From: Saccharothrix violaceirubra
Lineage (GTDB): Bacteria > Actinomycetota > Actinomycetes > Mycobacteriales > Pseudonocardiaceae
DNA: 64,000 bases
Assembly: GCF_014203755.1 (NCBI RefSeq)
Contig: NZ_JACHJS010000001.1
Coordinates: 4,960,001 to 5,024,000, forward strand
Direction of reading: 5' to 3'
How positions within the stretch are numbered: the stretch's first letter is position 1; every line of letters starts with the position of its first letter. Of the stretch, positions 30,191 through 64,000 are shown piece by piece. Under the pieces are notes generated by a model that was not told the DNA's origin, did no database searches, and saw nothing but the letters and a program-made list of their open reading frames with translations. The position numbers and the translations under genes are program-made.

Positions 30191-30270
30191 CTCATGACGG
30201 TATCCGCCGCGGTGTCGTGCCCGGTGTGCGTCGCGCCGACTGTCGGACCCACCCTCTAAACTCCGCTGCC

Positions 30271-38531: not shown

Positions 38532-38769
38532 CCGTGTCCCCCTGGATGTCAGATAACGAGTCGTCGACGAACATCCCAGGAACGCCTCGATCACGCTGTG
38601 CAGCAGAACGCGGCAGACCTGACTCCCCGCAAGGAAAATACTCACCTGAATGGCAGATGTCAACGACACGAATCAGACGGGGATTGCACCGGGTGACTAC
38701 CGGACGGACCAACCCGGTTATACCGAAACGCCCGGCCGAACAATTTTCACAAAACTCGGCCGGCCGTGC

Positions 38770-46976: not shown

Positions 46977-48221
46977 TCAAGAAGGACGGGGGGCGTTCAT
47001 CACCGTGTACCGGGCCGCACGGACGATCGGCGTGCCCAGGGCCACCAGGGACAGCAGGCCCATCACGGCGGCCATGCCCAGCACCGTCGGAAGCACACCG
47101 GGACCGTCCAGAAGGGGGCCGGTGAGCAGGGCGCCGAGGAAGGCCAGGCCCGAACCGAGGAGGGTCATGACGCTGACGGCCCGGCCCATCATGGCGTCCG
47201 GTGCCACGGAGACCAGGTAGATGCCGCCCGCGACGTTGAAGACGCCGCCGACGTAGCCGAAGGCGGCGAAAGCCCCGCCCAGCACAAAGGGATCGGAGGT
47301 GAAGGCCACCGGGACCACCGTCAGTGCCCAGACGGCGAACCCGCCGACCAGCAACGCCCGCATGGTCAGCCACTTGAGCCAGCGGGTGGCGGTCAGCGCG
47401 CCCAGCATGCCGCCGACACCACCGATCGCCGTGATCACACCGACCAGCAACCCGGTCCCCCCGGACTGCTTGATCAAGAAGATCACCGTGATCCCCAACC
47501 CGGCGAACACGATGTTGCTCACCGAGATCAGGATCATGGCCGTGCGCAACAGGTTCTGCGCCCAGATCCACCGGAACCCCTCGACCACCTCGGCCTTGAA
47601 GTCCCGCTTCGCCGAAGAACGCTCGTCCTGGAAGTCCTTGCGGATCAACAGCATCGACACCAACGACACCAGGTGCGCGAACGCCGTGAACACGAACGGC
47701 GTCCAGTGCAGGAACGCGAACAGCGAGCTGCCCAACGGCTGCCCCAGCGTCCCGGCCGCCCGCGACCGGGCCTCGTTCTGCCCCAACGCCGCCGAGAGCT
47801 GCTCCTTCGGCACGACATGTCGCACCGCGGACCGCTCGGCCAGGTCGTAGCAGATGGCCAACGCGCCCTGCACGAACGCCACGACCACCAGGTGCGCGAT
47901 CCACGTGTGCCCCAGGAACACCGCCACGGCGACGCTCAACGTGGACAGCACGCACCCCACGTCGGCGAGGATCATCAACCGCCGCCGGTCGACCCGGTCG
48001 ACCAGTACCCCGGCGGGCAACTGCACCAGCAGCTGCGGCAACAACGCCGCCGCGCCGACCAGACCGGCCATCGTCGCCGATCCCGTGGCCCACAGGGCGA
48101 GCATGGGGTAGACCGTGATGGTCACCCGGGTGCCGAGCAGGGTGCCGCCGGCACCCAGCCACAGCAACAGGAAGTCGCGGTTACGCCGCAACGGCGGCAA
48201 CTGTGTCTCGACCGTCGTCAT
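46977..48221 (-). CDS. MFS exporter (EntS/MFS_3 type)
   Basis: A 414-residue protein with 12 predicted membrane segments, starting at ATG 48221 in an overlap with the carbamoyltransferase stop (TGATGA). The MFS loop signature appears as GVLVDRVDRRRLMILADVG between segments 2 and 3. The subfamily resembles EntS-type exporters, which are common next to NRPS genes and carry the product out of the cell. Being the last gene of the NRPS operon, it is the likely exporter or self-resistance pump. Confidence 0.9.
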   Translation of the reverse strand: MTTVETQLPPLRRNRDFLLLWLGAGGTLLGTRVTITVYPMLALWATGSATMAGLVGAAALLPQLLVQLPAGVLVDRVDRRRLMILADVGCVLSTLSVAVAVFLGHTWIAHLVVVAFVQGALAICYDLAERSAVRHVVPKEQLSAALGQNEARSRAAGTLGQPLGSSLFAFLHWTPFVFTAFAHLVSLVSMLLIRKDFQDERSSAKRDFKAEVVEGFRWIWAQNLLRTAMILISVSNIVFAGLGITVIFLIKQSGGTGLLVGVITAIGGVGGMLGALTATRWLKWLTMRALLVGGFAVWALTVVPVAFTSDPFVLGGAFAAFGYVGGVFNVAGGIYLVSVAPDAMMGRAVSVMTLLGSGLAFLGALLTGPLLDGPGVLPTVLGMAAVMGLLSLVALGTPIVRAARYTVMNAPRPS

Positions 48222-49168
48222 CACACGGCCCCGGTCTGCGAAGGAACGCCCAGCAGGCTCCACTGGACGACGGCCATGGCGCTGAACATCTTGTACCGGG
48301 CCTGCTCGAACGCGATGCTGCGCGGCCCGTCGAGCACCTCGGCCGTGACCTCCTCGCCCCGGTGGGCGGGCAGGTCGTGCATGAACAACGCGTCGGGCGA
48401 TCCGGCGAACAGTCCATCGTGGACCTGGAACGGCGCGAACACCGTCCGCCAGTCCGGATCCGGCTTGGACGTCCCGGTGGTCTGCCACCGCGTCGTGTAG
48501 ACCACCCGCACGTCGGCCGGCAGGTCGTCCATGTCGTGCCGTTCCACGACCACCGCACCGGACGACGCGGCCTGCGCGACGGCGGTCTCCACGATCGAGG
48601 CCGGCATCCCGTAGCCGGGCGGCGTCCGGGCCTCGAAGTGCACGCCCGGGAACCGGCTCAGCGCCAACGCCAGCGCGGTGCACGTGTTGTTGCCCTCGCC
48701 GACGTAGAGCAGTCGCAGCCCGTCGAGCGTGCCGAACCGGGCGGTCAACGTGGTCAGGTCGGCCAGGGCCTGGGTCGGGTGCTCCAGTTCGCTCATGGCG
48801 TTGACCACGGGCAGCCCGGACGCGGCCAGCTCGCGCAGGTCGCGCTCGGCACCCGCGGTCCGGGCCACGAGCAGGTCGAGCATCCCGGCGAACACCCGCC
48901 CGGTGTCGGCGATCGACTCGCCGGTGTTGAGCTGGAGGTCGTTGGGGCCGTACGCGATCACGTCCGCCCCCAGCCGCAGCGCACCGCTGGTGAACGCGGT
49001 GCGCGTGCGGGTTGAGGTCTTGCTGAAGTAGACGCCGACGACGCGCCCGTGCAGCGGTCGTCCCGGTGCGTCCGCCTGTCCGAACCGCACCCCCTGGTCC
49101 ACGATGTGTCGCAGATCCCCGTCCGTCAGGTCCGTGACGGAGATCAGGGTTCCTCCGGTGCTGTTCAT
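48221..49168 (-). CDS. ornithine-carbamoyltransferase homologue (NRPS-associated carbamoyltransferase)
   Basis: A 315-residue aspartate/ornithine carbamoyltransferase-fold protein starting at ATG 49168. The carbamoyl-phosphate site is intact: KTSTRTRTAF (residues 50-59) and EHPTQ (129-133). The second-substrate loop, HCLP in OTC, is HDLP (264-267, MHDLPAHRGEEV), and the SMG region is replaced by YTTRWQTTGTSKPD. The amine acceptor is therefore probably not ornithine; a diamino acid or a peptide intermediate of this NRPS is a reasonable guess, in the manner of ureido-forming OTC homologues in other peptide pathways. It starts 26 bases after NRPS3 and overlaps the MFS gene. Confidence 0.88.
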   Translation of the reverse strand: MNSTGGTLISVTDLTDGDLRHIVDQGVRFGQADAPGRPLHGRVVGVYFSKTSTRTRTAFTSGALRLGADVIAYGPNDLQLNTGESIADTGRVFAGMLDLLVARTAGAERDLRELAASGLPVVNAMSELEHPTQALADLTTLTARFGTLDGLRLLYVGEGNNTCTALALALSRFPGVHFEARTPPGYGMPASIVETAVAQAASSGAVVVERHDMDDLPADVRVVYTTRWQTTGTSKPDPDWRTVFAPFQVHDGLFAGSPDALFMHDLPAHRGEEVTAEVLDGPRSIAFEQARYKMFSAMAVVQWSLLGVPSQTGAV

Positions 49169-49194
49169 TCCTGCCCCATGCGGTTCGGTGGTGG

Positions 49195-51984
49195 TCAGTA
49201 GGCGTGCGCGGCGGACAGTCCGGTACCCAGGTCGCCGACCAGGCGGTCGGCGTGCGCGGCGACGAACTTGTGCGCCTCGCGGCCGTTGTCGGAGTTGGTC
49301 AGGACGACGAGTCCGGTGCCCGCCGTGATCCCGGTGAGGGTCACGGCCCGGTAGCCGGGGGATTCGCCGATGTGGCCGAACTCCAGGTCGGCGCCGGTCG
49401 GGTCCACCGACGTGCCGAGGCCGAACAGGCTGCCCTCGTGCGCGACGGTGAGCATCCGCTCGGCGATCGCCCGCGTCAGGACCCGCGGGGACCGGCCCAG
49501 GTACGCGGACCGGATCTCGGCCGCCACCCGGGCCACGTCGGACGCCGTGGTCCACAGCCCGCCGCACGCGGCCGTCGACCGGTTGCGCCAGCCGCCGTCG
49601 AGCACGACGCCGTGCTCGTCGTGGCCGAGCGCGACCGGCCGGCCGGACGTGAGCGGGTGGTCGACGGCGTAGCCGCTGTCGTCCATGCCCAGCGGGTCGA
49701 GCACCAGCGTGCGCATCGCCTCCGGGAACGGCTGCCCGGTGACGTCGACGACGAGCTGCTGGAGGACCGCGTAGTGCGTGTTGTGCTTGACGAACTCGGT
49801 GCCGGGCGGGCTGACCACGTGCACCCGCGGCGGGTCGGCGGGCGGCTCGCCCTGGAGCAGGTCCAGCACGGTCGGCATGGCCGCGTCGCGGTGGTACTGC
49901 TCGTTGGACGTCTCCGACAACCCGGACAGGTTGGCCATCAGCAGCGCGGCCGTGATCGGTTCGGCGTCGGGCGGGTACGGGACCTGCCACGACGTCAGGT
50001 ACTCGTTCACGTCGGTGTCGATGTCGATCCGGCCCTGGGAGGCCAGCGCCAGCACGGCCACCGCGGTGACGTGCTTGCTGATCGAGCCGACCTGGAACAG
50101 CGTGTCCGGGGTGGTCGGCCCGCCGCCGGGGGTCAGCTCGCCGTAGCCGAACGCGGAGACGACCTCGCCGTCGGCGACCACCGCGATGGACACGGCGGGC
50201 ACGTGGTGCTCGGCCATCATCCCCAGCGGGGACGGGAAACCCTCCTCCGCCGACGAGGACGAGTCGCCGTCGAGCATCCGGCCCAGGTTGGCGATGGTGT
50301 CGTGCCGGTACAGCGTGGCCAACGACAGCTCCACCCCCTCCTCCTTCGCCACGGCCAGGAACCGGACCACGCGCAGCGAATCGCCGCCCAGGTCGAAGAA
50401 CCTGTCGTCCCGTCCCACCTGCTCGACCCCCAGGACCCGACTCCACATCGCCGCCAACCGGCGCTCGGTGTCGGTCGCCGGCGGCTGGTAGGGCTTGCTC
50501 GCCCCCAACGCGGTCCGGTCGGGGGCGGGCAGCGCCTTGCGGTCAACCTTGCCGGCCGCGCTCAGCGGAAACGCCGTCATGGTCACGAATGCCGCCGGGA
50601 TCATGTACTCGGGCAGCGACTGGGCCAGGTGCGCGGCCAACTCGGCCGGTTCGGCGGACGCGCCGGGCGCCGGGATGGTGTAGGCGACCAGCGAGTGGCC
50701 GCCCTCCTCGTCGCCCCGCGCGACCACGACGGCGTCGGCCACGGCCGGGTGCGCGACCAGACCGGCCTCGATCTCGCCGAGTTCGATCCGGTGGCCGCGC
50801 ACCTTGACCTGGTGGTCGGCCCGGCCGAGGAAGTCGACCGAGCCGTCCCGGGTGAACCGGGCCAGGTCGCCCGTGCGGTACATGCGCGAACCGGGGTTAC
50901 CGCCGAACGGTTCGGGGACGAACCGGTCGGCGGTGAGGTCGGGTCGGTTCGCGTAACCGCGGGCGACGCCGTCGCCGGCGATGTACAGCTCGCCGGTGAC
51001 GCCTACGGGCACCCGCCGGTACTTCGCGTCGAGCACGTACAGGCGGGTGTTGGGGATGGGCCGGCCGACCAGCACGCGGTCGACCGCCTCGGGCACGTCC
51101 CAGCTCGTCGACCACACCGTGGTCTCGGTCGGGCCGTACACGTTGACCAGGCGCGCGACCAACGGCCGCAACCGGGTCGCGAGCGTCTCGGGCAGCGCCT
51201 CGCCGCCGACCAGGGCGACGACGTGCGGCGGCGGGAAACCCGCCGCCAGCACCAGCTTCCAGCCCGACGGCGTGGCCTGGACGTGGCTCACGGCGTGCTT
51301 GTCGACGAGCTTGAGCAGCTCGCCGCCGTCGGCCGCCTGGGTGTCGCCCGCGAGCACGATCCGCCCGCCGGTGATCAGCGGGAGGTACAGCTCCAGGGCG
51401 GAGATGTCGAAGGACACGGCGGTCGAGGCGAGCCACGCGTGCTCGGGCCGCGAGCCGACCAGCCGTTCCATGGACTTGAGCAGGTTGATCAGGGCGCCGT
51501 GGGAGATCTGCACGCCCTTGGGCTCGCCGGTGGACCCGGACGTGAACATCACGTACGCCAGGTCCAGGCCGTCGCCGGGCACGGTGTCCGCCGGGGCGGC
51601 GCCCGCGACGTCGGCCGCGGGCACCACCGTGCCGGAGAACACCTCGGCCACGCGCTCGGCCGCGTCGGTGACGATCACCTTCGCGTCCGCCGTGGCGAGC
51701 ACCTTGGCGATGCGGGCGGGCGGGGTGGCGGCGGTGAGCGGCACGTACGTGGCGCCCGCCTTCCACACGCCCAGCATCGCGGCGGGCAGGTCGGCGCCCC
51801 GGTCGAGCAGCAGCCCGACCGCGTCGCCGCGCCGGACCCCGTTGGCCCGCAACAGGCCCGCGTACCGCGCCGCGAGGTCGTCGAGTTCGCGGTAGGTCCG
51901 CTCGACGCCGTCGACCACCAGCGCCACCGCGTCGGGTGCGGCCAGTACCTGCCGCTCGACCAGGTCGAGCACTCTGCGCGTCAT
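49195..51984 (-). CDS. NRPS3: adenylation-carrier module fused to an S12 beta-lactamase/PBP-like hydrolase
   Basis: A 929-residue protein starting at ATG 51984 in a TGATG overlap with NRPS2. It begins directly with an A domain (about 1-490; VMFTSGSTGEPKG, YGPTETTVW, YRTGDLARF, GKVDRKALP) and has no C domain of its own. Pocket residues read D-I-L-Q-L-G-V-V-W-K, close to the Gly code DILQLGLIWK. The carrier domain (about 500-570) has Ser536 in LGGDSLRVV. The C-terminal part (about 575-929) is a serine beta-lactamase/D-aminopeptidase-type domain with Ser634-x-x-Lys637 (GSISKHVTAV) and His871-x-Gly (GHIGESPG); the YxN Tyr is replaced (KHN, 733-735). It sits where a thioesterase would, so it is a probable in-cis release or cyclisation domain, like free-standing PBP-type cyclases. 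Confidence 0.9.
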   Translation of the reverse strand: MTRRVLDLVERQVLAAPDAVALVVDGVERTYRELDDLAARYAGLLRANGVRRGDAVGLLLDRGADLPAAMLGVWKAGATYVPLTAATPPARIAKVLATADAKVIVTDAAERVAEVFSGTVVPAADVAGAAPADTVPGDGLDLAYVMFTSGSTGEPKGVQISHGALINLLKSMERLVGSRPEHAWLASTAVSFDISALELYLPLITGGRIVLAGDTQAADGGELLKLVDKHAVSHVQATPSGWKLVLAAGFPPPHVVALVGGEALPETLATRLRPLVARLVNVYGPTETTVWSTSWDVPEAVDRVLVGRPIPNTRLYVLDAKYRRVPVGVTGELYIAGDGVARGYANRPDLTADRFVPEPFGGNPGSRMYRTGDLARFTRDGSVDFLGRADHQVKVRGHRIELGEIEAGLVAHPAVADAVVVARGDEEGGHSLVAYTIPAPGASAEPAELAAHLAQSLPEYMIPAAFVTMTAFPLSAAGKVDRKALPAPDRTALGASKPYQPPATDTERRLAAMWSRVLGVEQVGRDDRFFDLGGDSLRVVRFLAVAKEEGVELSLATLYRHDTIANLGRMLDGDSSSSAEEGFPSPLGMMAEHHVPAVSIAVVADGEVVSAFGYGELTPGGGPTTPDTLFQVGSISKHVTAVAVLALASQGRIDIDTDVNEYLTSWQVPYPPDAEPITAALLMANLSGLSETSNEQYHRDAAMPTVLDLLQGEPPADPPRVHVVSPPGTEFVKHNTHYAVLQQLVVDVTGQPFPEAMRTLVLDPLGMDDSGYAVDHPLTSGRPVALGHDEHGVVLDGGWRNRSTAACGGLWTTASDVARVAAEIRSAYLGRSPRVLTRAIAERMLTVAHEGSLFGLGTSVDPTGADLEFGHIGESPGYRAVTLTGITAGTGLVVLTNSDNGREAHKFVAAHADRLVGDLGTGLSAAHAY

Positions 51985-54900
51985 CACCACTCCACCGCCG
52001 TGTCGTTCCAGTCGGGCACGTCGTCGGCGGCGAGTTCGGCGGTCGCGTCGCCGTCCGGGTCGGCGGCCATGGCTTCGAGCACCCGCCGGTAGAGGTCGGC
52101 GAGCCACCGGCCGTGCTCGGGCGCGACGTAGGACGGGTCCACGGTCAGCGCCAGATGGCCGGGCACCGTCGACACCGCCAGCGGGAACTCGTTCGCGCCC
52201 TCGCCCGCGCCCTCGCCGACGCCGATGCCGCCCTGGCCGCTCTGCCCGTCCAGGTCGGTCTCGGCCGCGTCGAAGTCGCGGTAGCTGAACATGACGTCCA
52301 GCAGCCGGCCCGGTCCCGCCAGGGCGGCGATCGCGGGCATCGGCAGCGTGCGGTGCGGCCACAGCGCGGTCTCGGTCTCGAACACGCCCGAGACCAGCTC
52401 GCGCCACGTCGTGGCCCGGCCCTCGAACGCGATCGGCACGGTGTTCAGGTACATGCCGGGCACGCGTTCGACGCCCTCGACCGCCGGTCGCGAGTCGGAG
52501 ACCAGACCGCTGTGGAAGCCGCCGTCGGCGCCGAGCCGGGACAACACCGCCAGGTGCGCGCCGAGCAGCACGCTCTTGAACGGCGCACCGGCGGCGGCAC
52601 CGAGCCGCTCCAGGTCCGTCCGCAGGTCGGCGAACGCCACCGGCAGGATGTAGGACGCGCCGGGTGCGCCGGCCCACGCCTCGGGGAGGGTGAACTTCGG
52701 CAGGCCGGTGACGACCGACGTCCAGTACTCGGCGGTCTCCTCCGACGCCAACGACTTCTGCTCGGCGGCGATGAAGTCGGCGTAGCGGACGGCGGGCAGG
52801 GCGGGCAGGCCCGCGTCGCCGCCGTCGCGCTCGGCCCGGTACAGGGCCAGGAGTTCGCCGACGACCAGGCGCTGGCTCCAGCCCTCGGTGATCGCGTGGC
52901 ACACGGTCACCGACAGCCACCAGCCGTCGTCGCCGTCGACGTGCACGGTGATCCGCTCCAGCGGGGCGGTGCGCAGGTCGAACAGCGTGGCCCGCTCGTG
53001 CGCGACGAACTCGCGCATGGCGTTCTCCTTGCCCGCCTGGTCCAGGTCGCGCAGGTCGCGCGCCGAGACCGACAGCTCGGCGTGCTCGTGCACGAGCTGG
53101 AGCGGGGTGGAGTAGTCCTCCAGGTGGATCGCCGAGCGCAGGACCTCGTGCCGGGCCACCAGCTTCGCCGCCGCGCGGCGCAACGCGTCCACGTCGAACG
53201 GCGTGGTGTCGTTGACCCGGAACGACTGGCAGTTGTGGTACCGGTTCACGGTCGGGTCGGAGAGCATCTCCACGACCATGCCCAGCTGCACGCGCGACAG
53301 CGGGTACGCGTCGGCCAGGCCGCCGGGCAGCGCCGCCCGGTCCTCCGCCGACAGCAACGCGAACGGCTCGACGAGCCGCTCCCCCGGCACGGTCTCGGCG
53401 GACTCGCCCGAGATCGCCTCGGCCAGCTCGGCGATGGTCCGGTGCCGGAACACGTCCTGCACGCCGACCGTGATGCCCGCCGCGCGCAACGCGCCGACCA
53501 CCGCGACCGCACGGATCGAATGCCCGCCCACCGCGAAGAAGTCGTCGTGCACACCGACCGACGGCAGCTCCAGGACCTTCCGCCACACCTCGGCGATCTG
53601 GGTCTCCAGCGCGGTGCGCGGACCGCCCACGGCCGGCGCACCCGAGATGGCCTCGGCCAGCTCGGCGATGGTCCGGTTGCGGAACACGTCCTGCACACCG
53701 ACCTCGACACCCGCCGCGCGCAACGCGCCCACGACGGCCACCGCACGGATCGAGTGCCCACCGACGGCGAAGAAGTCGTCGTGGATGCCGACCGACGGCA
53801 GGTCCAGGACCTTGCGCCACACCTCGGCGATCTGCGCTTCGAGCGGCGTGCGCGGTCCACCGACCGCCGGAACGCCCGAGATCGCCTCGGCCAGCTCCGC
53901 GATCGTCCGGTGCCGGAACACGTCCTGCACACCGACCTCGACACCGGCCGCGCGCAACGCGCCGACCACCGCGACCGCACGGATCGAATGCCCGCCGACC
54001 GCGAAGAAGTCGTCGTGCACACCGACCGACGGCAGGTCGAGGACCCTGCACCACACCTCGGCGATCTGGGTCTCCAGCGGGGTGCGCGGCGCGTCCTCCT
54101 GCACGGGCACGCCGGAGATGGCCTCGGCCAGCTCGGCGATCGTGCGGTTGCGGAACACCTCCTGCACACCGACCTCGACACCGGCCGCGCGCAACGCGCC
54201 CACGACCGCCACCGCGCGGATCGAGTGGCCGCCGACCGCGAAGAAGTCGTCGTGGACGCCCACGGACGACCGCTCCAGGACCTTGCACCACACCTCGGCG
54301 ATCTGCCGCTCCAGTGCCGTGCGCGGTTCGGACGAGCGGACCTCGGCCGCCGCCTCCTCGACCGACGGCAGCGCGCGCCGGTCGATCTTCCCGTTGGCGT
54401 TCAACGGGATCGCGGTCAGCCGCACGACCGCGGCGGGCACCATGTACTCGGGCACGCGGGTGGCGCAGAAGCGACGCAGCTCCTCACCATCCACATCGGA
54501 CACGACGTAGCCGAGCAGGCGGACGTCGTTGCCGGTGCCGTCGGCGATCACAGCCGCGTCGGACACCGAGGGGTGGTCCAGCAGCACGTTGCGGACCTCG
54601 CCGGGCTCGACCCGGTAGCCGCGGATCTTGACCTGGTCGTCGACGCGGCCGAGGAACTCGACCGTGCCGTCGGCCGCGCGGCGCACCCGGTCGCCGGACT
54701 TGTAGAGGCGGCCCGGCCCGAACGGGTTGGGCAGGAAGCGCTCGGCGGTCATCGCGGGCTGACCCGCGTAGCCGCGCGCCACACCCGTGCCGCCGACGTA
54801 CAGCTCGCCGACCACGCCGATCGGAACCGGGTGCATGCGGGCGTCGAGCACGTACATCGTCAGACCCGGCAGCGGCTTGCCGATCGGCAGCACGTCGACG

Positions 54901-57900
54901 GTCGGCGTGCCGTGGATCGGGTGGATGCTCGTGCCGACCGACGCCTCGGTCGGACCGTACTCGTTGATCAGCCGGCAGTCCGGCGACAGCTCCTGCCAGC
55001 GCCGCACGGTCGTGCGGGTCAGCGGCTCACCGGCGACGACGAGCACGTCGGCGAGGTGCGTGCCGGCCGGGACCTGCGACGCGATCACGTCGAGGTGGCC
55101 GGGCGTGAGCTTGATGAACCCGAACGGTCCGGCTTCCAGCAGCAGCGCGCCCAGGTCGGCCAGGTCGAGGTCCTGCGGCAGGAACGCGACCCGGTGGCCG
55201 GTGACCAGCGGCGCGTACAGGTTGGGCACCACGAGGTCGAACGCGACCGAGGAGAACACCGGAGCGCCGCCCTCGCCGGCCAGCTCGTCCGCCGCCCAGC
55301 GGACGTGGTTGGCCAGGCCCCGGTGGCTGATCTGCACACCCTTGGGGCGGCCGGTCGAGCCCGACGTGAAGATCACGTAGGCGAGGTTCTCCTCGTCCAC
55401 GGCCACGTCCGGCTTGGTGTCCGGCCGGTCGGCGAAGGCCTCGCGGTCCAGCAGCACGGTCGGCACGCCGGGCACGGTGTGCTTGGACTCGGTCACGGCC
55501 ACGACCGCGCCCGAGTCCGTGACGACGGCCTCGACGCGCTCCACCGGGTAGCTCGGGTCGAGCGGCACATAGGCACCGCCCGCCTTCCACGTGGCCAGCA
55601 GCGCGGTCATCAGGGCCGGGCCGCGGTCGACGAGCACCGCGACGACCGACTCCGTGCCGACGCCCTGGTCGCGCAGGTGGTGGGCCAGCCGGTTCGCGGC
55701 CCGGTCCAGCTCGGCGTAGGTCGTGCTCTCGCCCTTGTAGGTGATCGCGACGGCGTCCGGCGTGCGGGCGGCCTGCGCCTCGAACCCGTCGAGCACCGAG
55801 CCCGCGAAACCCTCGACGACCACGTCCGGCTGCGCGAGCACGGACCGCCGCTCGGCCTCGGGCAGCGGCACGACCCTCGGGTCGCCCTGCGGGTCGGCGG
55901 CCATGGCCGTGAAGACCTCGCGGTACAGCGCGCCGATCCGCTCGACGTTCGCGCGGTCGAAGTGCGCGCTGTTGGCCATGAGGAACACGTGGCCCAGGCG
56001 GGCGAGCACGGCGAGCGGGAACTCGGTCGGGCTGTCGTCGATGCTGGCCGCGTAGTCCACGAGTTCGCGGTCGACCATGGTGAAGTCGTGGAAGCTGAAC
56101 CGGACGTCGAGCAGCCGCTCGCCGCCGCCCAGCTCCTGCTGGATCACCGGCATCGGGAACCGGCGGTGCGGCCACACCTCGGCCTCCTGCGCGAACACCG
56201 CGCCGACCAGGTCGCGCCACGTGCGGGCGGTCCGGTCGTGGTGGAACGGCAGGCTGTTGAGGAACATGCCGTACACGCGCTCGGCGCCGAGCACCTCGGG
56301 CCGGCCGTGCAGGACCAGGCCGCTCAGGAAGCTCTCCTGCTCGGTGAGCCTGCTCAGCACGGTGAAGTGCGCGGCGAGCACGACGCTCTTGAGCGACGCG
56401 CCCGCGCTCGCGGCCAGGTCGCGCAGCTTCGGCTCCAGGTCCACGAACGGCACCGCGTGCGTGACCGTGTGCGGCTCGACCGAGGGGTCGCCCCAGCCGG
56501 TCGGCACGGCGAACCGGGGGTAGGTGTCGACCACCGAACCCCAGTAGGCGCGGTCGTCGGGCGAGTCCAGCGACGCCAGCTCGGCGGCGATGAAGTCCGC
56601 GTAGCGCAGGTCGGGCACCTCGACGGCGGCCGGTGCGCCCGTGTCGCGGATCTGCCGGTAGCAGTCGAGGACGTCCATCAGCAGCGTGTGGTGCGTCCAG
56701 CCCTCGATCACCGCGTGGCACTCGGTGATGGTGAACCACCAGACGTTCCCGTCGGCCTCGTGCGCGCCGATCCGGACCAGCGACTTCTCGGCCAGGTCGA
56801 ACGGGTTCGCGCGCTCGTGCGCCACGAACTCGCGCACGGCCGCGTCCACGCCCTCGTCGTCCAGGCCGCGCACGTCGAAGTGCTCGACGCCCATGGCGGC
56901 GTCCTCGTGCACGATCTGCATGGGTACCGAGTAGCCGTCGATGTCGATGCTCGTGCGCAACACCTGGTGCCGCGAGGAGATCACGCGGGCGGCCTCGCGC
57001 AGTGCGTCGGCGTCGAACGGCGCGTCGTCGCGGACCCGGAACGACGTGGCGTTGTGGTACGCCGCGCGCTCGCCCGAGGTCAGCATCTCCACGACCATGC
57101 CGGTCTGGATCTTCGACAGCGGGTAGGCGTCCACGACACCCTCGGGCAGGCGTGCCCGGTCGGTGTCGGAGATCAGCTCGAACGGCTGGACGCGGCGGTC
57201 GAACACGCGCTCCTCGCGGGTGTCGACCAGCGCGGACAGCGCCGCGACCGAGCGGTTCTCGAACACGTCGCGCACGGCGACGTCGACACCGGCGGCACGC
57301 AGCCGGCCGACGAGCGCCACGGCGGTCATCGAGTTGCCGCCCAGGTCGAAGAAGCTGTCGCCGGCACCGACGCGGTCGATGTTCAGCAGGTCGCCGAACA
57401 GGCTCGCGATGCGCTCCTGGGTCGGCCCCTCCGGCGGCAGGTACGCGGCCTTGGCCAGCGCGTCGTCGGTCGGCGCGGGCAGCGCGCGCTTGTCCAGCTT
57501 GCCGTTGTTGGTCAACGGCAGGCGTTCGAGCACCACGATCGCGGCGGGCACCATGTACTCGGGCAGCCGGGCACCGATGAACTCGCGCACCTCGCGGGGC
57601 GACGGCTGCGCACCGGCCTCGGGCACGACGTAGCCGACGATCCGGCGGTCGCCCGGCACGTCCTCGCGCAGCAGCACGGCACCGTCGAGCACACCGGGGG
57701 ACGAGGTCAGCACGGCCTCGATCTCGCCCAGCTCGATCCGGAAACCGCGCACCTTGACCTGGTCGTCGATGCGGCCCAGGAACTCCAGGCTGCCGTCCGG
57801 GTTGCGCCGCGCGAGGTCGCCGCTGCGGTACAGCCGCTGCCCGGCCACGAACGGGTCCGGTACGAACCGCTCGGCGGTCAACGCCGGGCGGTTGAGGTAA

Positions 57901-60443
57901 CCGGAGGCCACACCCGGACCGCCGACGTGGATCTCGCCCGGGACGCCGACCGGCACGAGGTTGCCGTTCGGGTCGTACAGGTGCACGCGCAGGTCGGCCA
58001 GCGGCACGCCGACCGGGTTGCGCCAGCCGTCGGCCACGTCGGCGGCCGTGACCTCGTAGTACGTGGTGTGCACGGTCGTCTCGGTGATGCCGTACATGTT
58101 GAGCAGCTTGGGCCCGGCGGTGCCGAAGCGGTCGACCCACGGCCGCAGCTCGCCCATCTCCAGCTTCTCGCCCGCGAAGACCACGGCGCGCAGGCGCAGC
58201 GCGTCCAGGCGCGGGTCGTCCGCCTCGGCGAGGTTGACCAGGCCCTTGAACGCCGACGGCGTCTGGTTGAGCACCGTGACGTCGTGCTCCAGCAACAGGT
58301 CCAGGAAGTCCTCGGGCGAACGCGTGACCGACTGCGGCACGACGACGAGCTTGCCGCCGTAGAGCAACGCGCCCCACATCTCCCACACGGACACGTCGAA
58401 CGCGTAGGAGTGGAACAGCGGCCACACGTCGTCCGGGCTGAACGCGTAGTGCCGGTGGCCCGCGTAGAGCAGGCGGGCCACGTTGCGGTGCGTCAAGCAC
58501 ACGCCCTTGGGGCGGCCGGTGGAGCCCGACGTGTAGATCACGTAGATCGGGTCGTCGGCGCCGGTCCCGAGGTCCACATCGGACTCTTCGTGCGCCGCGA
58601 TCGCCGGGTCGCCGTGCACGACGCGCGTGCCCTCGGAGAACTCCGCGACGACGTCCCGGGTGGCGGCGTCGGTGATCACGACGGTCGTGCCCGCGTCCTC
58701 GACCATGAACCGCAGCCGGTCCACCGGCACGGCCGGGTCCAGCGGCAGGTACGCGGCACCGGCCTTGAGCACGCCCAGGATCGACACCAGCACGTCCGCC
58801 GAGCGCGGCAGGCAGATGCCCACCAGCGACCCCGGCGTGACGCCGACGGAGACCAGGTGGCGGGCCAGCCGGTTCGCGCGGGCGTTCAGCTCGCCGTACG
58901 ACAGCACCTCGTCGCCGAACACCACGGCGGGCGAGGTCGGCGCCGCGGCGGCACGGGCCGCGAACAGCGCGTGCACGCCCTGGTCGACGGTGAACGAGAG
59001 GTCGACCTCGGAGCGCACGAGCAGGTCGCGCTCGGCCGCGTCGACGAACTCCAGCTCGGACACGCGCGACTCGGACGCGGCGATCACCGCGTCCAGCAGG
59101 CCGAGGTAGTGGCCGGCGAGCCGCTCCACGGTCGTCCGGTCGAACAGCGCGGTCGCGTACTCCAGCTCCAGGCGCAGCGCGCCGTCGCGGCTCTGCTTGA
59201 CCAGGGCGGTCAGGTCGAACCGGGACACCTGCGAGGGCAGGTCGAGCGGCGAGACCTCCAGGCCCGGCAGCGCGAACAGGTCGTCCTGCGCCTCGTGCAG
59301 CGTGAACGCCACCTGGAACAGCGGCGTGCGGGACATGTCGCGCTGCGGCTGGAGTTCGTCGACCAGGCGGGCGAACGGCACCTCCTGGTGGTCGAACGCC
59401 TCGTAGACGGCGGTCCGCGTGTCGCCGAGCAGCTCGGCGAACGTGGTCGCGGGCGTCCAGCGGGTGCGCACGACCAGGCTGTTGATGCCGTAGCCGATCA
59501 GGCGCTGGAGTTCGGGCCGGGTGCGGCCGGACACCATCGTGCCGACCGCGACGTCCGTGCGACCGGTGTAGCGGGAGAGCAGGGCCTGGAACGCCGACAG
59601 CAGCACCACGAACTCGGTGACGCCGTAGCGCTTGGCCAGCTCGCGCACGCCCTGGGCGGTCGCCTCGGGCACGGACTGCCCGTGCACGGCGCCGCGCCAG
59701 TCCCGCGCCGCCGGGCGCTGCCGGTCGGTCGGCAGGTCCAGCGGTTCGAGGTCGACGAGCTGCTTGCCCCAGTAGTCGAGGTGGCGGCGGTGCGCGACCT
59801 CGGACCGTTCCCGCTCCCACGACGCGTAGTCGGCGAACTGCACGGCCGGGGGCGCCACCGCGGGCGGCAGCTTCTCCACCGCCGCGCCGTAGCCCTCGCG
59901 TAGTTCGTCCGCGAACACGCCGAACGACCAGGCGTCCCACGCGATGTGGTGGAACACGGCCACGAACACGTGCGAGTCGTCCGCCACGCGGATCAGCTCG
60001 GCCCGGACCGGCCACTCGCGCTCCAGGTCGAACCCGGTGCGGGCGGCGCGGTCCACGTGGTCGAGCACGGCGACGGGGTTGCCGTCCACGTCGTGCACGG
60101 GCAGGTCGATCACGCCGGGCTCGTCGACGACCTGCACGGCCTTGTCGTCGACCAGGGCGTAGCGGGTGCGCAGCACCTCGTGGCGGGACACGATCCCGGC
60201 CCACGCGGCACGCAGCGCGTCGACGTCCAGCGCGCCCTTGATCCGCAGGGCGACCGGGATCAGGTACTCGGCGCTGCCCGGGTCGAGCCGACCGAGGAAC
60301 CACATCTGCTGCTGGCCGTAGGACAGCGGCAGGTCACCCGACCGGTCGGCACGCGGGATCACCGCCCGCTTGGCCGACCGGCCCTGTTCGAGGCGGCGAC
60401 GCAGCAGTTCCGCGCGCCCGGCCTCGATCTCGCTCGTCGTCAC
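51984..60443 (-). CDS. NRPS2: C-A-T-C-A-T-T-T-T-C synthetase with four tandem carrier domains
   Basis: A 2819-residue protein starting at GTG 60443 in a GTGA overlap with NRPS1. Domains: C1 (about 35-460, HHIAWDA with His165/166); A1 (about 490-990, code D-V-W-N-V-A-M-V-H-K, Thr-like); T1 with Ser1038 (LGGNSMTAV); C2 (about 1105-1530, ECHAVIEGW); A2 (about 1560-2030, code D-L-P-K-V-A-E-V-G-K, Asn-like); four carriers T2-T5 (2041 to about 2350; Ser2074, 2153, 2231 and 2309 in AVGGHSIRAV each); C3 (about 2365-2790, VCHAITEGW). C2 and C3 keep the second His but have Glu for Asp in HHxxxDG. It ends in C3, which must act with the A-T of NRPS3. There is no epimerase. The short docking-like start (MTTSEIEAGRAELLRRRLEQ) may link to NRPS1. 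Confidence 0.93.
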   Translation of the reverse strand: MTTSEIEAGRAELLRRRLEQGRSAKRAVIPRADRSGDLPLSYGQQQMWFLGRLDPGSAEYLIPVALRIKGALDVDALRAAWAGIVSRHEVLRTRYALVDDKAVQVVDEPGVIDLPVHDVDGNPVAVLDHVDRAARTGFDLEREWPVRAELIRVADDSHVFVAVFHHIAWDAWSFGVFADELREGYGAAVEKLPPAVAPPAVQFADYASWERERSEVAHRRHLDYWGKQLVDLEPLDLPTDRQRPAARDWRGAVHGQSVPEATAQGVRELAKRYGVTEFVVLLSAFQALLSRYTGRTDVAVGTMVSGRTRPELQRLIGYGINSLVVRTRWTPATTFAELLGDTRTAVYEAFDHQEVPFARLVDELQPQRDMSRTPLFQVAFTLHEAQDDLFALPGLEVSPLDLPSQVSRFDLTALVKQSRDGALRLELEYATALFDRTTVERLAGHYLGLLDAVIAASESRVSELEFVDAAERDLLVRSEVDLSFTVDQGVHALFAARAAAAPTSPAVVFGDEVLSYGELNARANRLARHLVSVGVTPGSLVGICLPRSADVLVSILGVLKAGAAYLPLDPAVPVDRLRFMVEDAGTTVVITDAATRDVVAEFSEGTRVVHGDPAIAAHEESDVDLGTGADDPIYVIYTSGSTGRPKGVCLTHRNVARLLYAGHRHYAFSPDDVWPLFHSYAFDVSVWEMWGALLYGGKLVVVPQSVTRSPEDFLDLLLEHDVTVLNQTPSAFKGLVNLAEADDPRLDALRLRAVVFAGEKLEMGELRPWVDRFGTAGPKLLNMYGITETTVHTTYYEVTAADVADGWRNPVGVPLADLRVHLYDPNGNLVPVGVPGEIHVGGPGVASGYLNRPALTAERFVPDPFVAGQRLYRSGDLARRNPDGSLEFLGRIDDQVKVRGFRIELGEIEAVLTSSPGVLDGAVLLREDVPGDRRIVGYVVPEAGAQPSPREVREFIGARLPEYMVPAAIVVLERLPLTNNGKLDKRALPAPTDDALAKAAYLPPEGPTQERIASLFGDLLNIDRVGAGDSFFDLGGNSMTAVALVGRLRAAGVDVAVRDVFENRSVAALSALVDTREERVFDRRVQPFELISDTDRARLPEGVVDAYPLSKIQTGMVVEMLTSGERAAYHNATSFRVRDDAPFDADALREAARVISSRHQVLRTSIDIDGYSVPMQIVHEDAAMGVEHFDVRGLDDEGVDAAVREFVAHERANPFDLAEKSLVRIGAHEADGNVWWFTITECHAVIEGWTHHTLLMDVLDCYRQIRDTGAPAAVEVPDLRYADFIAAELASLDSPDDRAYWGSVVDTYPRFAVPTGWGDPSVEPHTVTHAVPFVDLEPKLRDLAASAGASLKSVVLAAHFTVLSRLTEQESFLSGLVLHGRPEVLGAERVYGMFLNSLPFHHDRTARTWRDLVGAVFAQEAEVWPHRRFPMPVIQQELGGGERLLDVRFSFHDFTMVDRELVDYAASIDDSPTEFPLAVLARLGHVFLMANSAHFDRANVERIGALYREVFTAMAADPQGDPRVVPLPEAERRSVLAQPDVVVEGFAGSVLDGFEAQAARTPDAVAITYKGESTTYAELDRAANRLAHHLRDQGVGTESVVAVLVDRGPALMTALLATWKAGGAYVPLDPSYPVERVEAVVTDSGAVVAVTESKHTVPGVPTVLLDREAFADRPDTKPDVAVDEENLAYVIFTSGSTGRPKGVQISHRGLANHVRWAADELAGEGGAPVFSSVAFDLVVPNLYAPLVTGHRVAFLPQDLDLADLGALLLEAGPFGFIKLTPGHLDVIASQVPAGTHLADVLVVAGEPLTRTTVRRWQELSPDCRLINEYGPTEASVGTSIHPIHGTPTVDVLPIGKPLPGLTMYVLDARMHPVPIGVVGELYVGGTGVARGYAGQPAMTAERFLPNPFGPGRLYKSGDRVRRAADGTVEFLGRVDDQVKIRGYRVEPGEVRNVLLDHPSVSDAAVIADGTGNDVRLLGYVVSDVDGEELRRFCATRVPEYMVPAAVVRLTAIPLNANGKIDRRALPSVEEAAAEVRSSEPRTALERQIAEVWCKVLERSSVGVHDDFFAVGGHSIRAVAVVGALRAAGVEVGVQEVFRNRTIAELAEAISGVPVQEDAPRTPLETQIAEVWCRVLDLPSVGVHDDFFAVGGHSIRAVAVVGALRAAGVEVGVQDVFRHRTIAELAEAISGVPAVGGPRTPLEAQIAEVWRKVLDLPSVGIHDDFFAVGGHSIRAVAVVGALRAAGVEVGVQDVFRNRTIAELAEAISGAPAVGGPRTALETQIAEVWRKVLELPSVGVHDDFFAVGGHSIRAVAVVGALRAAGITVGVQDVFRHRTIAELAEAISGESAETVPGERLVEPFALLSAEDRAALPGGLADAYPLSRVQLGMVVEMLSDPTVNRYHNCQSFRVNDTTPFDVDALRRAAAKLVARHEVLRSAIHLEDYSTPLQLVHEHAELSVSARDLRDLDQAGKENAMREFVAHERATLFDLRTAPLERITVHVDGDDGWWLSVTVCHAITEGWSQRLVVGELLALYRAERDGGDAGLPALPAVRYADFIAAEQKSLASEETAEYWTSVVTGLPKFTLPEAWAGAPGASYILPVAFADLRTDLERLGAAAGAPFKSVLLGAHLAVLSRLGADGGFHSGLVSDSRPAVEGVERVPGMYLNTVPIAFEGRATTWRELVSGVFETETALWPHRTLPMPAIAALAGPGRLLDVMFSYRDFDAAETDLDGQSGQGGIGVGEGAGEGANEFPLAVSTVPGHLALTVDPSYVAPEHGRWLADLYRRVLEAMAADPDGDATAELAADDVPDWNDTAVEW
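53400..54323 (-). repeat. four near-identical tandem carrier-domain repeats within NRPS2
   Basis: Units begin at 54323, 54086, 53852 and 53618 (minus strand) and are 237, 234, 234 and about 220 bases long. The phosphopantetheine Ser codons lie at 54224, 53987, 53753 and 53519. The units share nearly all residues from DDFFAVGGHSIRAVAVVGAL through TIAELAEAISG, and differ mainly in linkers (PVQEDAP, PAVGGP, PAVGGP) and at a few positions such as VFRNR/VFRHR. Confidence 0.95.
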
Positions 60444-63400
60444 GACGTGAACCCCTTGTCGTCCGCCGAGTGCGCGAGCACCTCGGCATCGGTCATGTGC
60501 TCGATCTCGGCGCGGATCGCGTCCTCGACGGCCTGCGCGAGCCGGGCCACGGTCGGGTGCTCGAACACCTGGCGCACGGTGAACTCCAGCGCGAACTCCT
60601 CGCCGATCAGCGAGGTGAGCCGCACCGCGAGGATCGAGTTGCCGCCGATCTCGAAGAAGCTGTCGCCGGCGCCCACGCGGTCGACGCCGAGCAGCTCGGA
60701 GATCAGGTCGGCGATGCGCTCCTCCACCACGCCGGCGGGGGCGACGAAGTCGACCCTGGCCAGCGCGTCGTCGGTGGGTGCGGGCAGTGCGCGCTTGTCC
60801 AGCTTGCCGTTGTTGGTCAGCGGCAGGCGTTCGAGCACGACGAGCGCGGCGGGCACCATGTAGTCCGGCAGTCGGACGCCGACGAAGTCGCGCAGTTCGC
60901 GCGGCGACACGTCCGCACCCGCGGCGGGCACGACGTAGCCGACGATCCGGCGGTCGCCGGGCGTGTCCTCGCGCAGCACGACGGCCGCGTCGCGCACGCC
61001 GGGCGCGTCGGCGAGGACGGCCTCGATCTCGCCCAGCTCGATCCGGAAGCCCCGGATCTTGATCTGGTCGTCGATGCGGCCCAGGAACTCCAGGCTGCCG
61101 TCCGGGTTGCGCCGGGCCAGGTCACCGCTGCGGTACAGCCGCTGACCGGGCGCGTACGGGTCGGGCACGAACTTCTCGGCGGTGAGCGCCGGGCGGTTCA
61201 GGTACCCGTCGGCCACGCCGGGGCCGCCGACGTGGATCTCGCCGGGGACACCGACCGGCACCAGGCGGCCGTGCCGGTCGTACAGGTGCACGCTCAGGTC
61301 CGCGAGCGGCACGCCGACCGGGTTGAGCCAGCCGTTCTCGACGTCCTCGCGCGTCACCTCGTAGTACGTGGTGTGCACGGTCGTCTCGGTGATGCCGTAC
61401 ATGTTGACCAGCTTGGGCGCGGAGGTGCCGAACAGCTCGACCCACGGCCGCAGCTCGCCCATCTCCAGCTTCTCGCCGCCGAACGTGACGGCGCGCAGCC
61501 TGAGGTCCCGCAGGCGCGGGTCCCCGGCGGCGGCCAGGTTGACCAGCCCCTTGAACGCCGACGGCGTCTGGTTGAGCACCGTGACGCCGTGCTCCACCAA
61601 CAGGTCCAGGAACTCGTCCGGCGAGCGGGTGACCGACTGCGGCACGACGACGAGCTTGCCGCCGTAGAGCAGCGAGCCCCACATCTCCCACACGGACATG
61701 TCGAACGCGTAGGAGTGGAACAGCGTCCAGACGTCGTCCGGGCTGAACGCGTACTCGGCATGACAGGCGTGCATCAGACGCGCGACGTTGCGGTGCGTCA
61801 GGCGCACGCCCTTGGGCCGGCCCGTGGAACCGGACGTGTAGATCACGTAGATCGGGTCGTCGACGCCCGTTCCGTTGTCCACATCGGACGCGTCATGCGC
61901 GGCGATGGCGGCGGCCTGGCGCTCGTCGTCCAGGACGACCCGGACCCCGGTGAAGAAGTCCGTCGCCACGGCGGCGTGCGTGAGGACCACGGACACGTCC
62001 GCGTCCTCGACCATGAACTTCAGCCGCTCGTCGGGCACGGCCGGGTCGAGCGGCAGGTACGCGGCACCCGCCTTGAGCACGCCCAGGACCGACACGAGCA
62101 GGTCGTCGGTGCGCGGCTGGCAGATGCCCACCAGCGACCCCGGCGTGACGCCGACCGAGACCAGGTGGCGGGCCAGCCGGTTCGCGCGCTCGTTCAGCTC
62201 GCGGTACGACAGCACCTCGTCGCCGAACACCAGCGCGGTCGAGTGCGGGAACCGGGCGGCGGACTCGGCGAACACGGCGTGCAGGCCGCGGTCGACCGCG
62301 TAGCCGGGGTCCGCCGGCCGGGCCACGAGCAGCGCGTGCTCGGCCTCGTCGAGGAATTCCAAGGCGGACAGGCGCTTCCCGGCGTCGGCGGTGGCCGCCT
62401 CGACCAGGCCGAGGAAGTGCCCGACGAACCGCTCGACCGTGGACCGGTCGAACAGCGCCGCCGCGTACTCCAGGTAGCCGGTCACGCCGCCGTCGCCACG
62501 CCGCTGCATCAGCAGCGTGAGGTCGGTCTTGGCCACCCGCCACGCGTCGGCGAACTCGTCCACGTCGGACGCGTCGTCGGTGGTGCCGGTCAGCCCTTCC
62601 TCGTGGAAGTCGAACGACACCTGGTAGAGCGGCGTGCGGGACAGGTCGCGCGGCACGTCGAGCGCGTCCACGACCCGGTCGAACGGCGCGACCTGGTGGG
62701 CGAACGCGCCGCGTGCGGCGTCGCGGACGCGGACCAGCGCGTCGGCGAACGTCGGGTCGTCGCCCAGGTCGCCGCGCACGACGACCGAGTTGAGGAAGAA
62801 CCCGACCAGGTCGGCCAGTTCGGGCCGGTCGCGACCGGCGACCGGGCTGCCGACCGCGATGTCGCCCTGGTCGGTGTAGCGGGCCAGCAGGACCATGTAG
62901 CAGGCGAGGAACGCCATGTAGGGCGTGGCGCCCTGACGGCGGCCGAGGTCGGCCAGGCGGTTCGCCAGCGCGGGCGGCACGTCGAACGCGACCATGCCGC
63001 CGCGCGCGTCGCGCTCGGCGGGCCGGGGCCGGTCCGTGGACAGCTCCAGCGGCCCCAGGCCCGCCAGGTTCGCCCGCCAGTACGCCAGGTCCCGCTCGAC
63101 CTGCTCGCCGGTCACGTGCTCGTGCTGCCACAACGCGAAGTCCGCGTAGTGCAGGCCGACCGCGGGCAGGTCCGGCTCGCGGTCGCCCTGGTGCGCCGCG
63201 ATCAGCTCGCGCAGCTCGCGTTCGAGCACCACGCTGGACCAGCCGTCGCACGCGATGTGGTGCACGGTCAGCAGCAGCAACGACTCGTCGTCGGAGACCG
63301 GCATGAGCAGCGCCCGCCACAGCGGGCCGCCGGCCAGGTCGAACCCGCGCGAGAGCTGGGCCCGGACCTGGTCGAGCCGGTGCGGCTCGTCGCCCTCGAC

Positions 63401-64000
63401 CAGGGTCAGCTCGACCTTGCCGGGGTCGCCGATCCGCTGGGCCGGCACGCCCTGCTCGGACACGTAGGTCGTGCGCAGCACCTCGTGCCGGACCTCCAGC
63501 GCGTTGAGCGCGGCCCGGACGGTGTCCGACGGGATGTCGCGAGACACCCGCAGGAAGATCGGGGTGACCCACTCCAGGCTGCCCGGCCGGAGCTGGTCGA
63601 GGAACCAAAGCCTGCTCTGGCCGGTGGACAGCGGCAGCGTGCCGCCGGTGCGCGGCCGGGCCACGACCGGCGCGACCGAGCCGCCGGTCAGTTCGGCCTG
63701 CGCCCGCACGGTCGGCGAGGTGAACAGGTCGGACAGCCGCACGTCGGCACCGGTCTCCTCGCGCAGCCGGCCGGCCAGCCGGGCGAGCAGGATCGAGGTG
63801 CCGCCGAGCTGGAAGAAGTCGTCGTCCGCGCCGACGCGGTCCACGTCGAGCACGGCACGCCACGCCCGTGCCACGGCGGTCTGCGCGGCACCGACCGGTT
63901 CGACGTGCTCCGGTCGGGCGTCGGCGACCGCGAGGTCCGGGTCGGGCAGGGCGTTGCGGTCCACCTTGCCGCTCGCGGTCGTGGGCAGCGCGTCCAGCGC
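60440..64000 (-). CDS. NRPS1: partial synthetase, (A)-T-C-A-T (5' end outside window)
   Basis: The frame is open at base 64000, where it encodes the end of an A domain (SGKVDRNALPDPD). Then follow a carrier (DDFFQLGGTSILLARL, Ser codon near 63796), a C domain with a canonical HHIACDGWS, an A domain (VIYTSGSTGRPKG, RSGDLARRNPDGS) with pocket residues D-M-W-N-T-G-M-V-H-K, near the Thr code DFWNIGMVHK, and a final carrier (DSFFEIGGNSILAVRL). It ends at TGA 60440 and overlaps the NRPS2 start, so the three NRPS genes are coupled in order. The start module, and any MbtH-like gene, lie to the right of the window. Confidence 0.93.
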   Translation of the reverse strand, partial: ALDALPTTASGKVDRNALPDPDLAVADARPEHVEPVGAAQTAVARAWRAVLDVDRVGADDDFFQLGGTSILLARLAGRLREETGADVRLSDLFTSPTVRAQAELTGGSVAPVVARPRTGGTLPLSTGQSRLWFLDQLRPGSLEWVTPIFLRVSRDIPSDTVRAALNALEVRHEVLRTTYVSEQGVPAQRIGDPGKVELTLVEGDEPHRLDQVRAQLSRGFDLAGGPLWRALLMPVSDDESLLLLTVHHIACDGWSSVVLERELRELIAAHQGDREPDLPAVGLHYADFALWQHEHVTGEQVERDLAYWRANLAGLGPLELSTDRPRPAERDARGGMVAFDVPPALANRLADLGRRQGATPYMAFLACYMVLLARYTDQGDIAVGSPVAGRDRPELADLVGFFLNSVVVRGDLGDDPTFADALVRVRDAARGAFAHQVAPFDRVVDALDVPRDLSRTPLYQVSFDFHEEGLTGTTDDASDVDEFADAWRVAKTDLTLLMQRRGDGGVTGYLEYAAALFDRSTVERFVGHFLGLVEAATADAGKRLSALEFLDEAEHALLVARPADPGYAVDRGLHAVFAESAARFPHSTALVFGDEVLSYRELNERANRLARHLVSVGVTPGSLVGICQPRTDDLLVSVLGVLKAGAAYLPLDPAVPDERLKFMVEDADVSVVLTHAAVATDFFTGVRVVLDDERQAAAIAAHDASDVDNGTGVDDPIYVIYTSGSTGRPKGVRLTHRNVARLMHACHAEYAFSPDDVWTLFHSYAFDMSVWEMWGSLLYGGKLVVVPQSVTRSPDEFLDLLVEHGVTVLNQTPSAFKGLVNLAAAGDPRLRDLRLRAVTFGGEKLEMGELRPWVELFGTSAPKLVNMYGITETTVHTTYYEVTREDVENGWLNPVGVPLADLSVHLYDRHGRLVPVGVPGEIHVGGPGVADGYLNRPALTAEKFVPDPYAPGQRLYRSGDLARRNPDGSLEFLGRIDDQIKIRGFRIELGEIEAVLADAPGVRDAAVVLREDTPGDRRIVGYVVPAAGADVSPRELRDFVGVRLPDYMVPAALVVLERLPLTNNGKLDKRALPAPTDDALARVDFVAPAGVVEERIADLISELLGVDRVGAGDSFFEIGGNSILAVRLTSLIGEEFALEFTVRQVFEHPTVARLAQAVEDAIRAEIEHMTDAEVLAHSADDKGFTS

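Follow-up and report, generated by a model that had tools for sequence, protein, structure and literature searches.

A nonribosomal peptide synthetase (NRPS) of Saccharothrix violaceirubra, designated NRPS2, holds four adjacent carrier (PCP) domains between a single adenylation (A) domain and a condensation (C) domain, where one carrier per module is the usual NRPS arrangement. Judged from its sequence, the array is an extreme member of the known tandem-carrier kind, and it was found once in the material searched. It lies within the window, by which we mean the whole stretch of 64,000 nucleotides that was analyzed (contig NZ_JACHJS010000001.1, positions 4,960,001 to 5,024,000).

Architecture of NRPS2

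The domain order of NRPS2 is C-A-T-C-A-T-T-T-T-C (Table 1). Pfam identifies three C domains, two A domains and five PP-binding stretches, one of which is T3 and the other four the array, placed between the second A domain of the protein (A4) and the third C domain (C5). Domains are numbered along the assembly line, so that A2 and C3 of an earlier sequence-only reading are A4 and C5 here. That reading described four tandem PCPs between one A and one C domain, with intact GGHSI motifs and repeat lengths of 237/234/234 bp, a description that translation, TRF and Pfam all confirm. The four cores span 64 residues each at a spacing of 79/78/78 residues, and each contains FFAVGGHSIRAV, retains the phosphopantetheine serine within GGHSI and scores above 100 bits against our own PCP profile. 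TRF reports the array at 53407-54326 with a period of 234, 3.9 copies and a score of 1296, the top of 18 rows for the window. A single-sequence AlphaFold prediction repeats a similar set of helices four times, with a mean pLDDT of only 63. By its domain order, A4-T4a-d-C5 is a tandem-carrier module, having at least two adjacent carriers with one A domain before them and a catalytic domain after. Among the 73 carrier matches listed for the genome (E ≤ 0.001), these four alone lie within 500 bp of each other.

Table 1. Coordinates in the window of NRPS2, its domains and associated genes
Feature	Coordinates	Strand	Remarks
NRPS1, in-window part	60440..64000	-	extends 1446 bases into L003; whole protein A1-T1-C2-A2-T2
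NRPS2	51984..60443	-	2819 aa, C3-A3-T3-C4-A4-T4a-T4b-T4c-T4d-C5
C4 condensation domain	55824..57143, approximate	-	CHAVIEGW, KSVVLAAH
A4 adenylation domain, preceding the array	54354..55823, bounds approximate	-	code by eye DLPKVAEVGK
PCP T4a core	54111..54302	-	aa 2048-2111; Ser intact in GGHSI
PCP T4b core	53874..54065	-	aa 2127-2190; Ser intact in GGHSI
PCP T4c core	53640..53831	-	aa 2205-2268; Ser intact in GGHSI
PCP T4d core	53406..53597	-	aa 2283-2346; Ser intact in GGHSI
C5 condensation domain, after the array	52044..53396, approximate	-	CHAITEGW, KSVLLGAH
NRPS3	49195..51984	-	A5-T-beta-lactamase/PBP-type domain with SxxK (SISK)
Carbamoyltransferase	48221..49177, start approximate	-	ornithine carbamoyltransferase family, below equivalog cut-off
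MFS exporter	46977..48233, start approximate	-	44% identical relative adjoins the carbamoyltransferase gene in G009
TauD-family oxygenase	38770..39708	-	candidate hydroxylase of the array-bound residue

Divergence and selection

The cores are alike but not identical. Pairwise identities are 57-60 of 64 residues (89-94%) and 164-178 of 192 nucleotides (85-93%), every pair differing at 14-28 nucleotide positions. These differences fall at the third position of 9-21 of the 64 codons, at the first position of 2-5 and at the second of 1-2. By the NG86 method, dN ranges from 0.03 to 0.06 and dS from 0.16 to 0.52, with dS exceeding dN in all six pairs and dN/dS of about 0.09-0.30. Low dN/dS and retained serines at this level of synonymous divergence indicate that function was maintained in every copy. 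On these sequence grounds, the array PCPs are distinct copies under purifying selection, the pattern that would be expected if four working carriers were selected.

Variation is confined to ten of the 64 core positions, all outside positions 17-41; this segment, which surrounds Ser27, is identical in all four PCPs, and the parts recognized by partners are therefore probably equivalent. Elsewhere, Leu-Pro at positions 11-12 is replaced by Arg-Ser in T4a and Val-Glu at positions 42-43 by Ile-Thr in T4d, and at position 52 Asn and His alternate along the array (Asn-His-Asn-His). The copies also carry private sites, and the host genome is assembled as a single contig of 7.35 Mb.

Origin of the array

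In a tree of 552 carriers, composed of the carriers of listed database-search matches (best 120 per search) and that of NRPS3, the four array PCPs form one clade with a support of 0.989. The nearest carrier outside this clade is 78% identical (P0135) and the others are at most 71% identical, among the matches listed. The single clade suggests that, to the extent of the sampling, expansion of the array took place in this lineage.

The order of the duplications is less clear. At the nucleotide level, T4a pairs with T4c and T4b with T4d in 1987 of 2000 codon bootstraps, a split that favors duplication of a two-PCP block. This scheme disagrees with the linkers, which are alike after T4b and T4c and different after T4a, and with the protein tree, which groups the first copy with the fourth and the second with the third, at weak support values of 0.755 and 0.585. 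We did not adopt it. The sequence-only reading had attributed the similarity of the copies to recent duplication and/or gene conversion. A common origin is supported, but a very young age is not, given dS of 0.16-0.52 and purifying selection that keeps the proteins alike. For gene conversion, clustering of identical sites was tested by permutation of sites (p = 0.02), weak evidence that amounts to a hint of exchange among the array copies.

Another genus of the family offers a comparison. Its loci L031 (genome G569), L032 (G500) and L033 (G521) have in common the upstream gene, the beginning of the NRPS gene that comes next and an A domain with carriers after it; L031 has three carriers in tandem (TTT), and L032 and L033 have two (TT). 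Copies 2 and 3 of the G569 array differ at 3 of 210 nucleotides, and copy 1 differs from both at 37-40. Carrier number looks labile at this locus on the sequences compared, though all three genomes are drafts of about 30-40 contigs in which near-identical copies could be misassembled. An SbnB-like gene is found near the G569 array, much as diaminopropionate genes are found near the array of the window.

Occurrence of adjacent carriers

To judge how unusual four adjacent carriers are, we scanned 269 proteins, NRPS2 included, with our own carrier profile; they come from three database searches, each represented by the best 120 of thousands of matches. The longest carrier run is one in 251 proteins, two in 10, three in seven and four in one, which is NRPS2 itself. 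None of the 269 proteins is an NRPS2 orthologue with the same array. Non-self matches to a query of the array plus C5 (best 120 of 4157) are 44-54% identical over 65-72%, and a scan of genome contigs for an NRPS2 orthologue returned four matches of 22-25% identity.

Genome searches give a similar picture. A three-carrier profile (E ≤ 1e-30) matched one of 396 genomes of the phylum (the window's own), three of 298 of the order and 11 of 297 of the family, both counts including the own genome, and three of 249 from another family of the class; these genome sets overlap. Three carriers were counted at the matched loci of G569, G686 and G768 and two at every other non-own locus. When the phylum sample was searched with the array itself, the one match besides its own was to a single carrier. 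Such searches reveal arrays that resemble the queries and may miss others. Among open-access PMC literature, with subscription papers largely outside the search, we found no paper on four adjacent PCPs. The earlier suggestion that four nearly identical PCPs are unusual in an NRPS accordingly holds within the genomes, proteins and literature searched.

The TTT arrays of P0139, P0157, P0188, P0162, P0127, P0134 and P0145, and of loci in G569, G686 and G768, likewise consist of adjacent carriers within a single chain, and those that were read (P0139, P0157 and G569) closely resemble each other within the array. In P0139, the array comes after C-A and before another PF00668-type stretch, just as the array of NRPS2 follows an A and precedes a C domain. 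They differ in having three carriers and other sequences, and in P0127, P0134, P0145 and P0162 they are N-terminal. Because three-carrier arrays occur in several lineages, the kind is already known and it is the size of four that is new. We also note a near-identical carrier pair with GGDSMTAIQVVWLANQAGI that recurs in six g244 genomes (G469, G636, G621, G521, G656 and G680; L021-L024, L026 and L027).

Gene cluster and assembly line

The genes follow in the order NRPS1, NRPS2, NRPS3, carbamoyltransferase and MFS exporter, with overlapping NRPS reading frames. Upstream of NRPS1 are genes for MbtH, SbnB, SbnA, a carrier, FabH and FabG; SbnB and SbnA, for 2,3-diaminopropionate synthesis, both exceed the NCBIfam cut-off. 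Next to the NRPS genes but on the opposite strand, positions 5739-20000 of L003, the stretch of the same genome beyond the window edge, encode a free C domain, an AT together with a carrier, an SDR, a ketosynthase and KR/DH proteins, a set that reads as resembling lipid-synthase or PUFA-synthase-like sets. The A-domain codes, read by eye from an alignment, are DAWQFATIDK (A1), DMWNTGMVHK (A2), DVWNVAMVHK (A3), DLPKVAEVGK (A4) and DILQLGVVWK (A5). On the basis of the GrsA positions, we take A1 to be Gln-like, A2 and A3 Thr-like, A4 Asn-like and A5 Gly-like, all low-confidence guesses. Collinear reading of the line predicts a five-residue lipopeptide.

NRPS3 lacks a C domain of its own and begins with A5, which provides C5 with a normal acceptor. 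Its C-terminus matches PF00144 at 153.8 bits and contains SISK, the SxxK motif of PBP-type thioesterases. Enzymes of this type are described as standalone cyclases that act at a terminal D-residue (PMC7565604); the A5 code, read by eye, is Gly-like and so points to an achiral residue. We observe that the beta-lactamase/PBP-type domain of NRPS3 is fused in cis to A-T, and that many of the listed relatives of array plus C5 carry PF00144.

Two further observations concern the surroundings. A fatty acyl-AMP-ligase-like protein is encoded at 36762-38669, directly downstream of the TauD gene, and may activate the lipid for the pathway to which TauD is assigned; the congener clusters searched contain no specific relative of it. 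At 29240-31344 of the window, a NaeI-type restriction endonuclease (PF09126, 308 bits) stands beside an opposite-strand C5-cytosine methylase, and the two are likely a restriction-modification pair.

The oxygenase and the congeners

No hydroxylase was seen inside the operon. The TauD gene lies about 7 kb from that of the exporter. The genes in between look unrelated and encode a regulator, an MMPL transporter (without a match in a PHROGs scan), a two-component system and a DUF4097 protein. The TauD product is 64-65% identical to proteins of the congeners G009 and G008, the only relatives above 46% identity in 25 genomes of the genus (E ≤ 1e-40). In both, an A-T module with the code of A4, read by eye, has a single carrier and is followed directly by the TauD relative. 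On the strength of this arrangement, we count the TauD protein of the window in the pathway despite its distance. At E ≤ 0.001, its solved relatives are limited to a clavaminate-synthase-like plant protein and a TauD/TfdA-like protein. AsnO and VioC, which hydroxylate free amino acids, are absent from solved relatives at that threshold. The idea that the array serves as a waiting platform for a hydroxylase fits these data and gains support from the congener modules; from sequence comparison it is plausible.

The alternative partner named by the sequence-only reading, the carbamoyltransferase, fares less well. At E ≤ 1e-60, relatives of this enzyme occur in five of the 25 genus genomes (the own genome, G008, G009, G015 and G024), and the clusters of G009 and G008 both include one; in G009, a second TauD gene follows, together with genes for the carbamoyltransferase, for an MFS exporter and for SbnA. 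With C4-A4 as query, G009, G008 and G015 are the three best non-self genomes. G015 has the carbamoyltransferase, SbnA and a TauD relative of 36-37% identity, and none of its six A domains read by eye shows an A4-like code. An A1-like (Gln-like) code was read in the window, G009 and G015, G008 not being among those read for A1. Action of the carbamoyltransferase on the array is weakened by G015, with its A1-like code and no A4-like code in the six, and we did not retain it as the main idea.

The condensation domains C4 and C5

Among solved chains, McyA matches C5 best, followed by AmbE. The class of C domains named CmodAA is marked by [K/R]SVLLAAH and has been reported with a strict DG in the HHxxxDG motif, with Cys for the first His in two members that perform side-chain conjugation (PMC11342130). 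Its dehydration of carrier-bound residues is described in two sources (PMC11342130, PMC10880069), one of which reports it as confirmed for two pathways (PMC11342130). Here, C5 has KSVLLGAH and C4 has KSVVLAAH, and C3 lacks both such a stretch and an EGW-type motif; in C4 and C5 the first His is Cys and DG is replaced by EG, so we call them CmodAA-like rather than members. C domains of this EGW type are common among the listed relatives. By analogy, C5 would be expected to dehydrate and/or condense the array-bound residue.

Comparison with known systems

Fungal iterative NRPSs of the BEAS/BSLS type are self-sufficient and are not known to involve other elongation proteins. NRPS2 does not stand alone in this way, with NRPS1 before it and NRPS3 after it in overlapping frames. 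Its domain order matches that of the fungal BEAS and BSLS (C-A-T-C-A-MT-T-T-C), including the terminal C, except for MT and two more T domains. Those enzymes are iterative and have two carriers, whereas the bacterial set is collinear and ends in an A-T-release protein. In BEAS/BSLS, both tandem T domains are reported to be needed for efficiency, although each works without the other (PMC11026467). KorC, the koranimine NRPS, also has tandem carriers served by one A domain, which is reported to charge both with the same amino acid (PMC9640594). In that system the A domain comes from another protein, KorD, and two carriers are implied; in NRPS2 there are four, in cis after the A domain.

PUFA synthases, reported to have four to six carriers per chain (PMC13291983), resemble the array in that many carriers share one chain. 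More tandem ACPs are described to raise output with an unchanged profile, array structure mattering too, and single inactivation has the same effect at each position (PMC5067506). These are ACPs of an iterative lipid synthase, in a chain with KS, AT and KR, whereas the array consists of PCPs that an A domain loads within an NRPS module, and neither KS nor AT is among the Pfam matches of NRPS2. The AMB line (AmbB, AmbE) is reported to combine a CmodAA-type C domain with the Fe(II)/2OG oxygenases AmbC and AmbD (PMC10880069), a setting that resembles that of the window, and AmbE is the second-best solved match of C5. It differs in its product, and the available part of its description has no such carrier array (PMC10880069).

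Role of the array

We give about even weight to the proposal that four equivalent carriers of module 4 raise occupancy at a slow step and thereby allow higher throughput of the same product. The pentamodular line would run A1-T-C-A-T / C-A-T-C-A-T4-C / A-T-release, with the array as module 4. A4 would load its amino acid onto any of the four PCPs, each of which, after extension by C4, could serve as donor for C5. Meanwhile the chains would wait for slow steps, for which trans-acting hydroxylation by the TauD protein and dehydration/condensation by the CmodAA-like C5 are the likeliest candidates; four slots would keep these steps supplied, so that throughput rises and the product stays unchanged. 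Loading of all four carriers, the substrate, hydroxylation on the carrier and the throughput benefit are what we infer; the architecture, the four intact serines, purifying selection, a single origin and variable carrier number at the other locus of the family are what the sequences show. The flux idea of the sequence-only reading likewise fits the array. The chemistry does not need an array, as the congeners G009 and G008 have a single carrier and carriers never adjoin in 251 of the 269 proteins listed; with one carrier at the comparable module of G009 and G008, the array is at most an optimization.

Other explanations carry less weight. Near-neutral expansion, in which tandem duplication in a repetitive gene is tolerated and brings no benefit, draws on the variable carrier number at the other family locus, with its very young third copy, and on exact runs of up to 50 nucleotides (T4b/T4d) that favor unequal recombination. 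Four retained serines and low dN/dS at the observed dS imply that the copies were kept functional, and we consider this account unlikely. A division of labor, with individual PCPs specialized for loading, hydroxylation or transfer to C5, would find its footing in the differences at core positions 11-12, 42-43 and 52 and in the nucleotide pairing of T4a with T4c and T4b with T4d, yet the stretch around the serine is the same in all four and so few positions vary that specialization seems rather more doubtful still. The resemblance to BEAS/BSLS raises the further prospect that the NRPS2 modules are reused and the tandem carriers park growing chains, as in fungal cyclooligomer synthetases; the sequence-only reading had also named iterative loading. 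Since C5 finds a normal acceptor in NRPS3 and a donor comes from NRPS1 in a collinear set, iterative use of this kind is improbable. Finally, the number of nucleotide differences, the private sites and the one-contig genome make a simple assembly duplication unlikely, and that the true carrier number is smaller is barely credible.

An extended form of the throughput proposal is tentative. The array would act as a processing deck on which TauD hydroxylates the residue of each carrier in trans and the CmodAA-like C5 dehydrates it, as a parallel feed or, in the boldest version, with iterative use of NRPS2.

The reason for tandem carriers in synthetases is a practical question for the engineering of yield, and carrier number is described as raising flux in PUFA synthases (PMC5067506). 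A natural four-carrier array, congeners with one carrier and a family locus with two or three would together provide a clean test of carrier number versus flux in an NRPS. If the processing-deck reading is true, this would be the largest PCP array found in an NRPS module in the material searched, and carrier number, not chemistry, would set the rate of the pathway.
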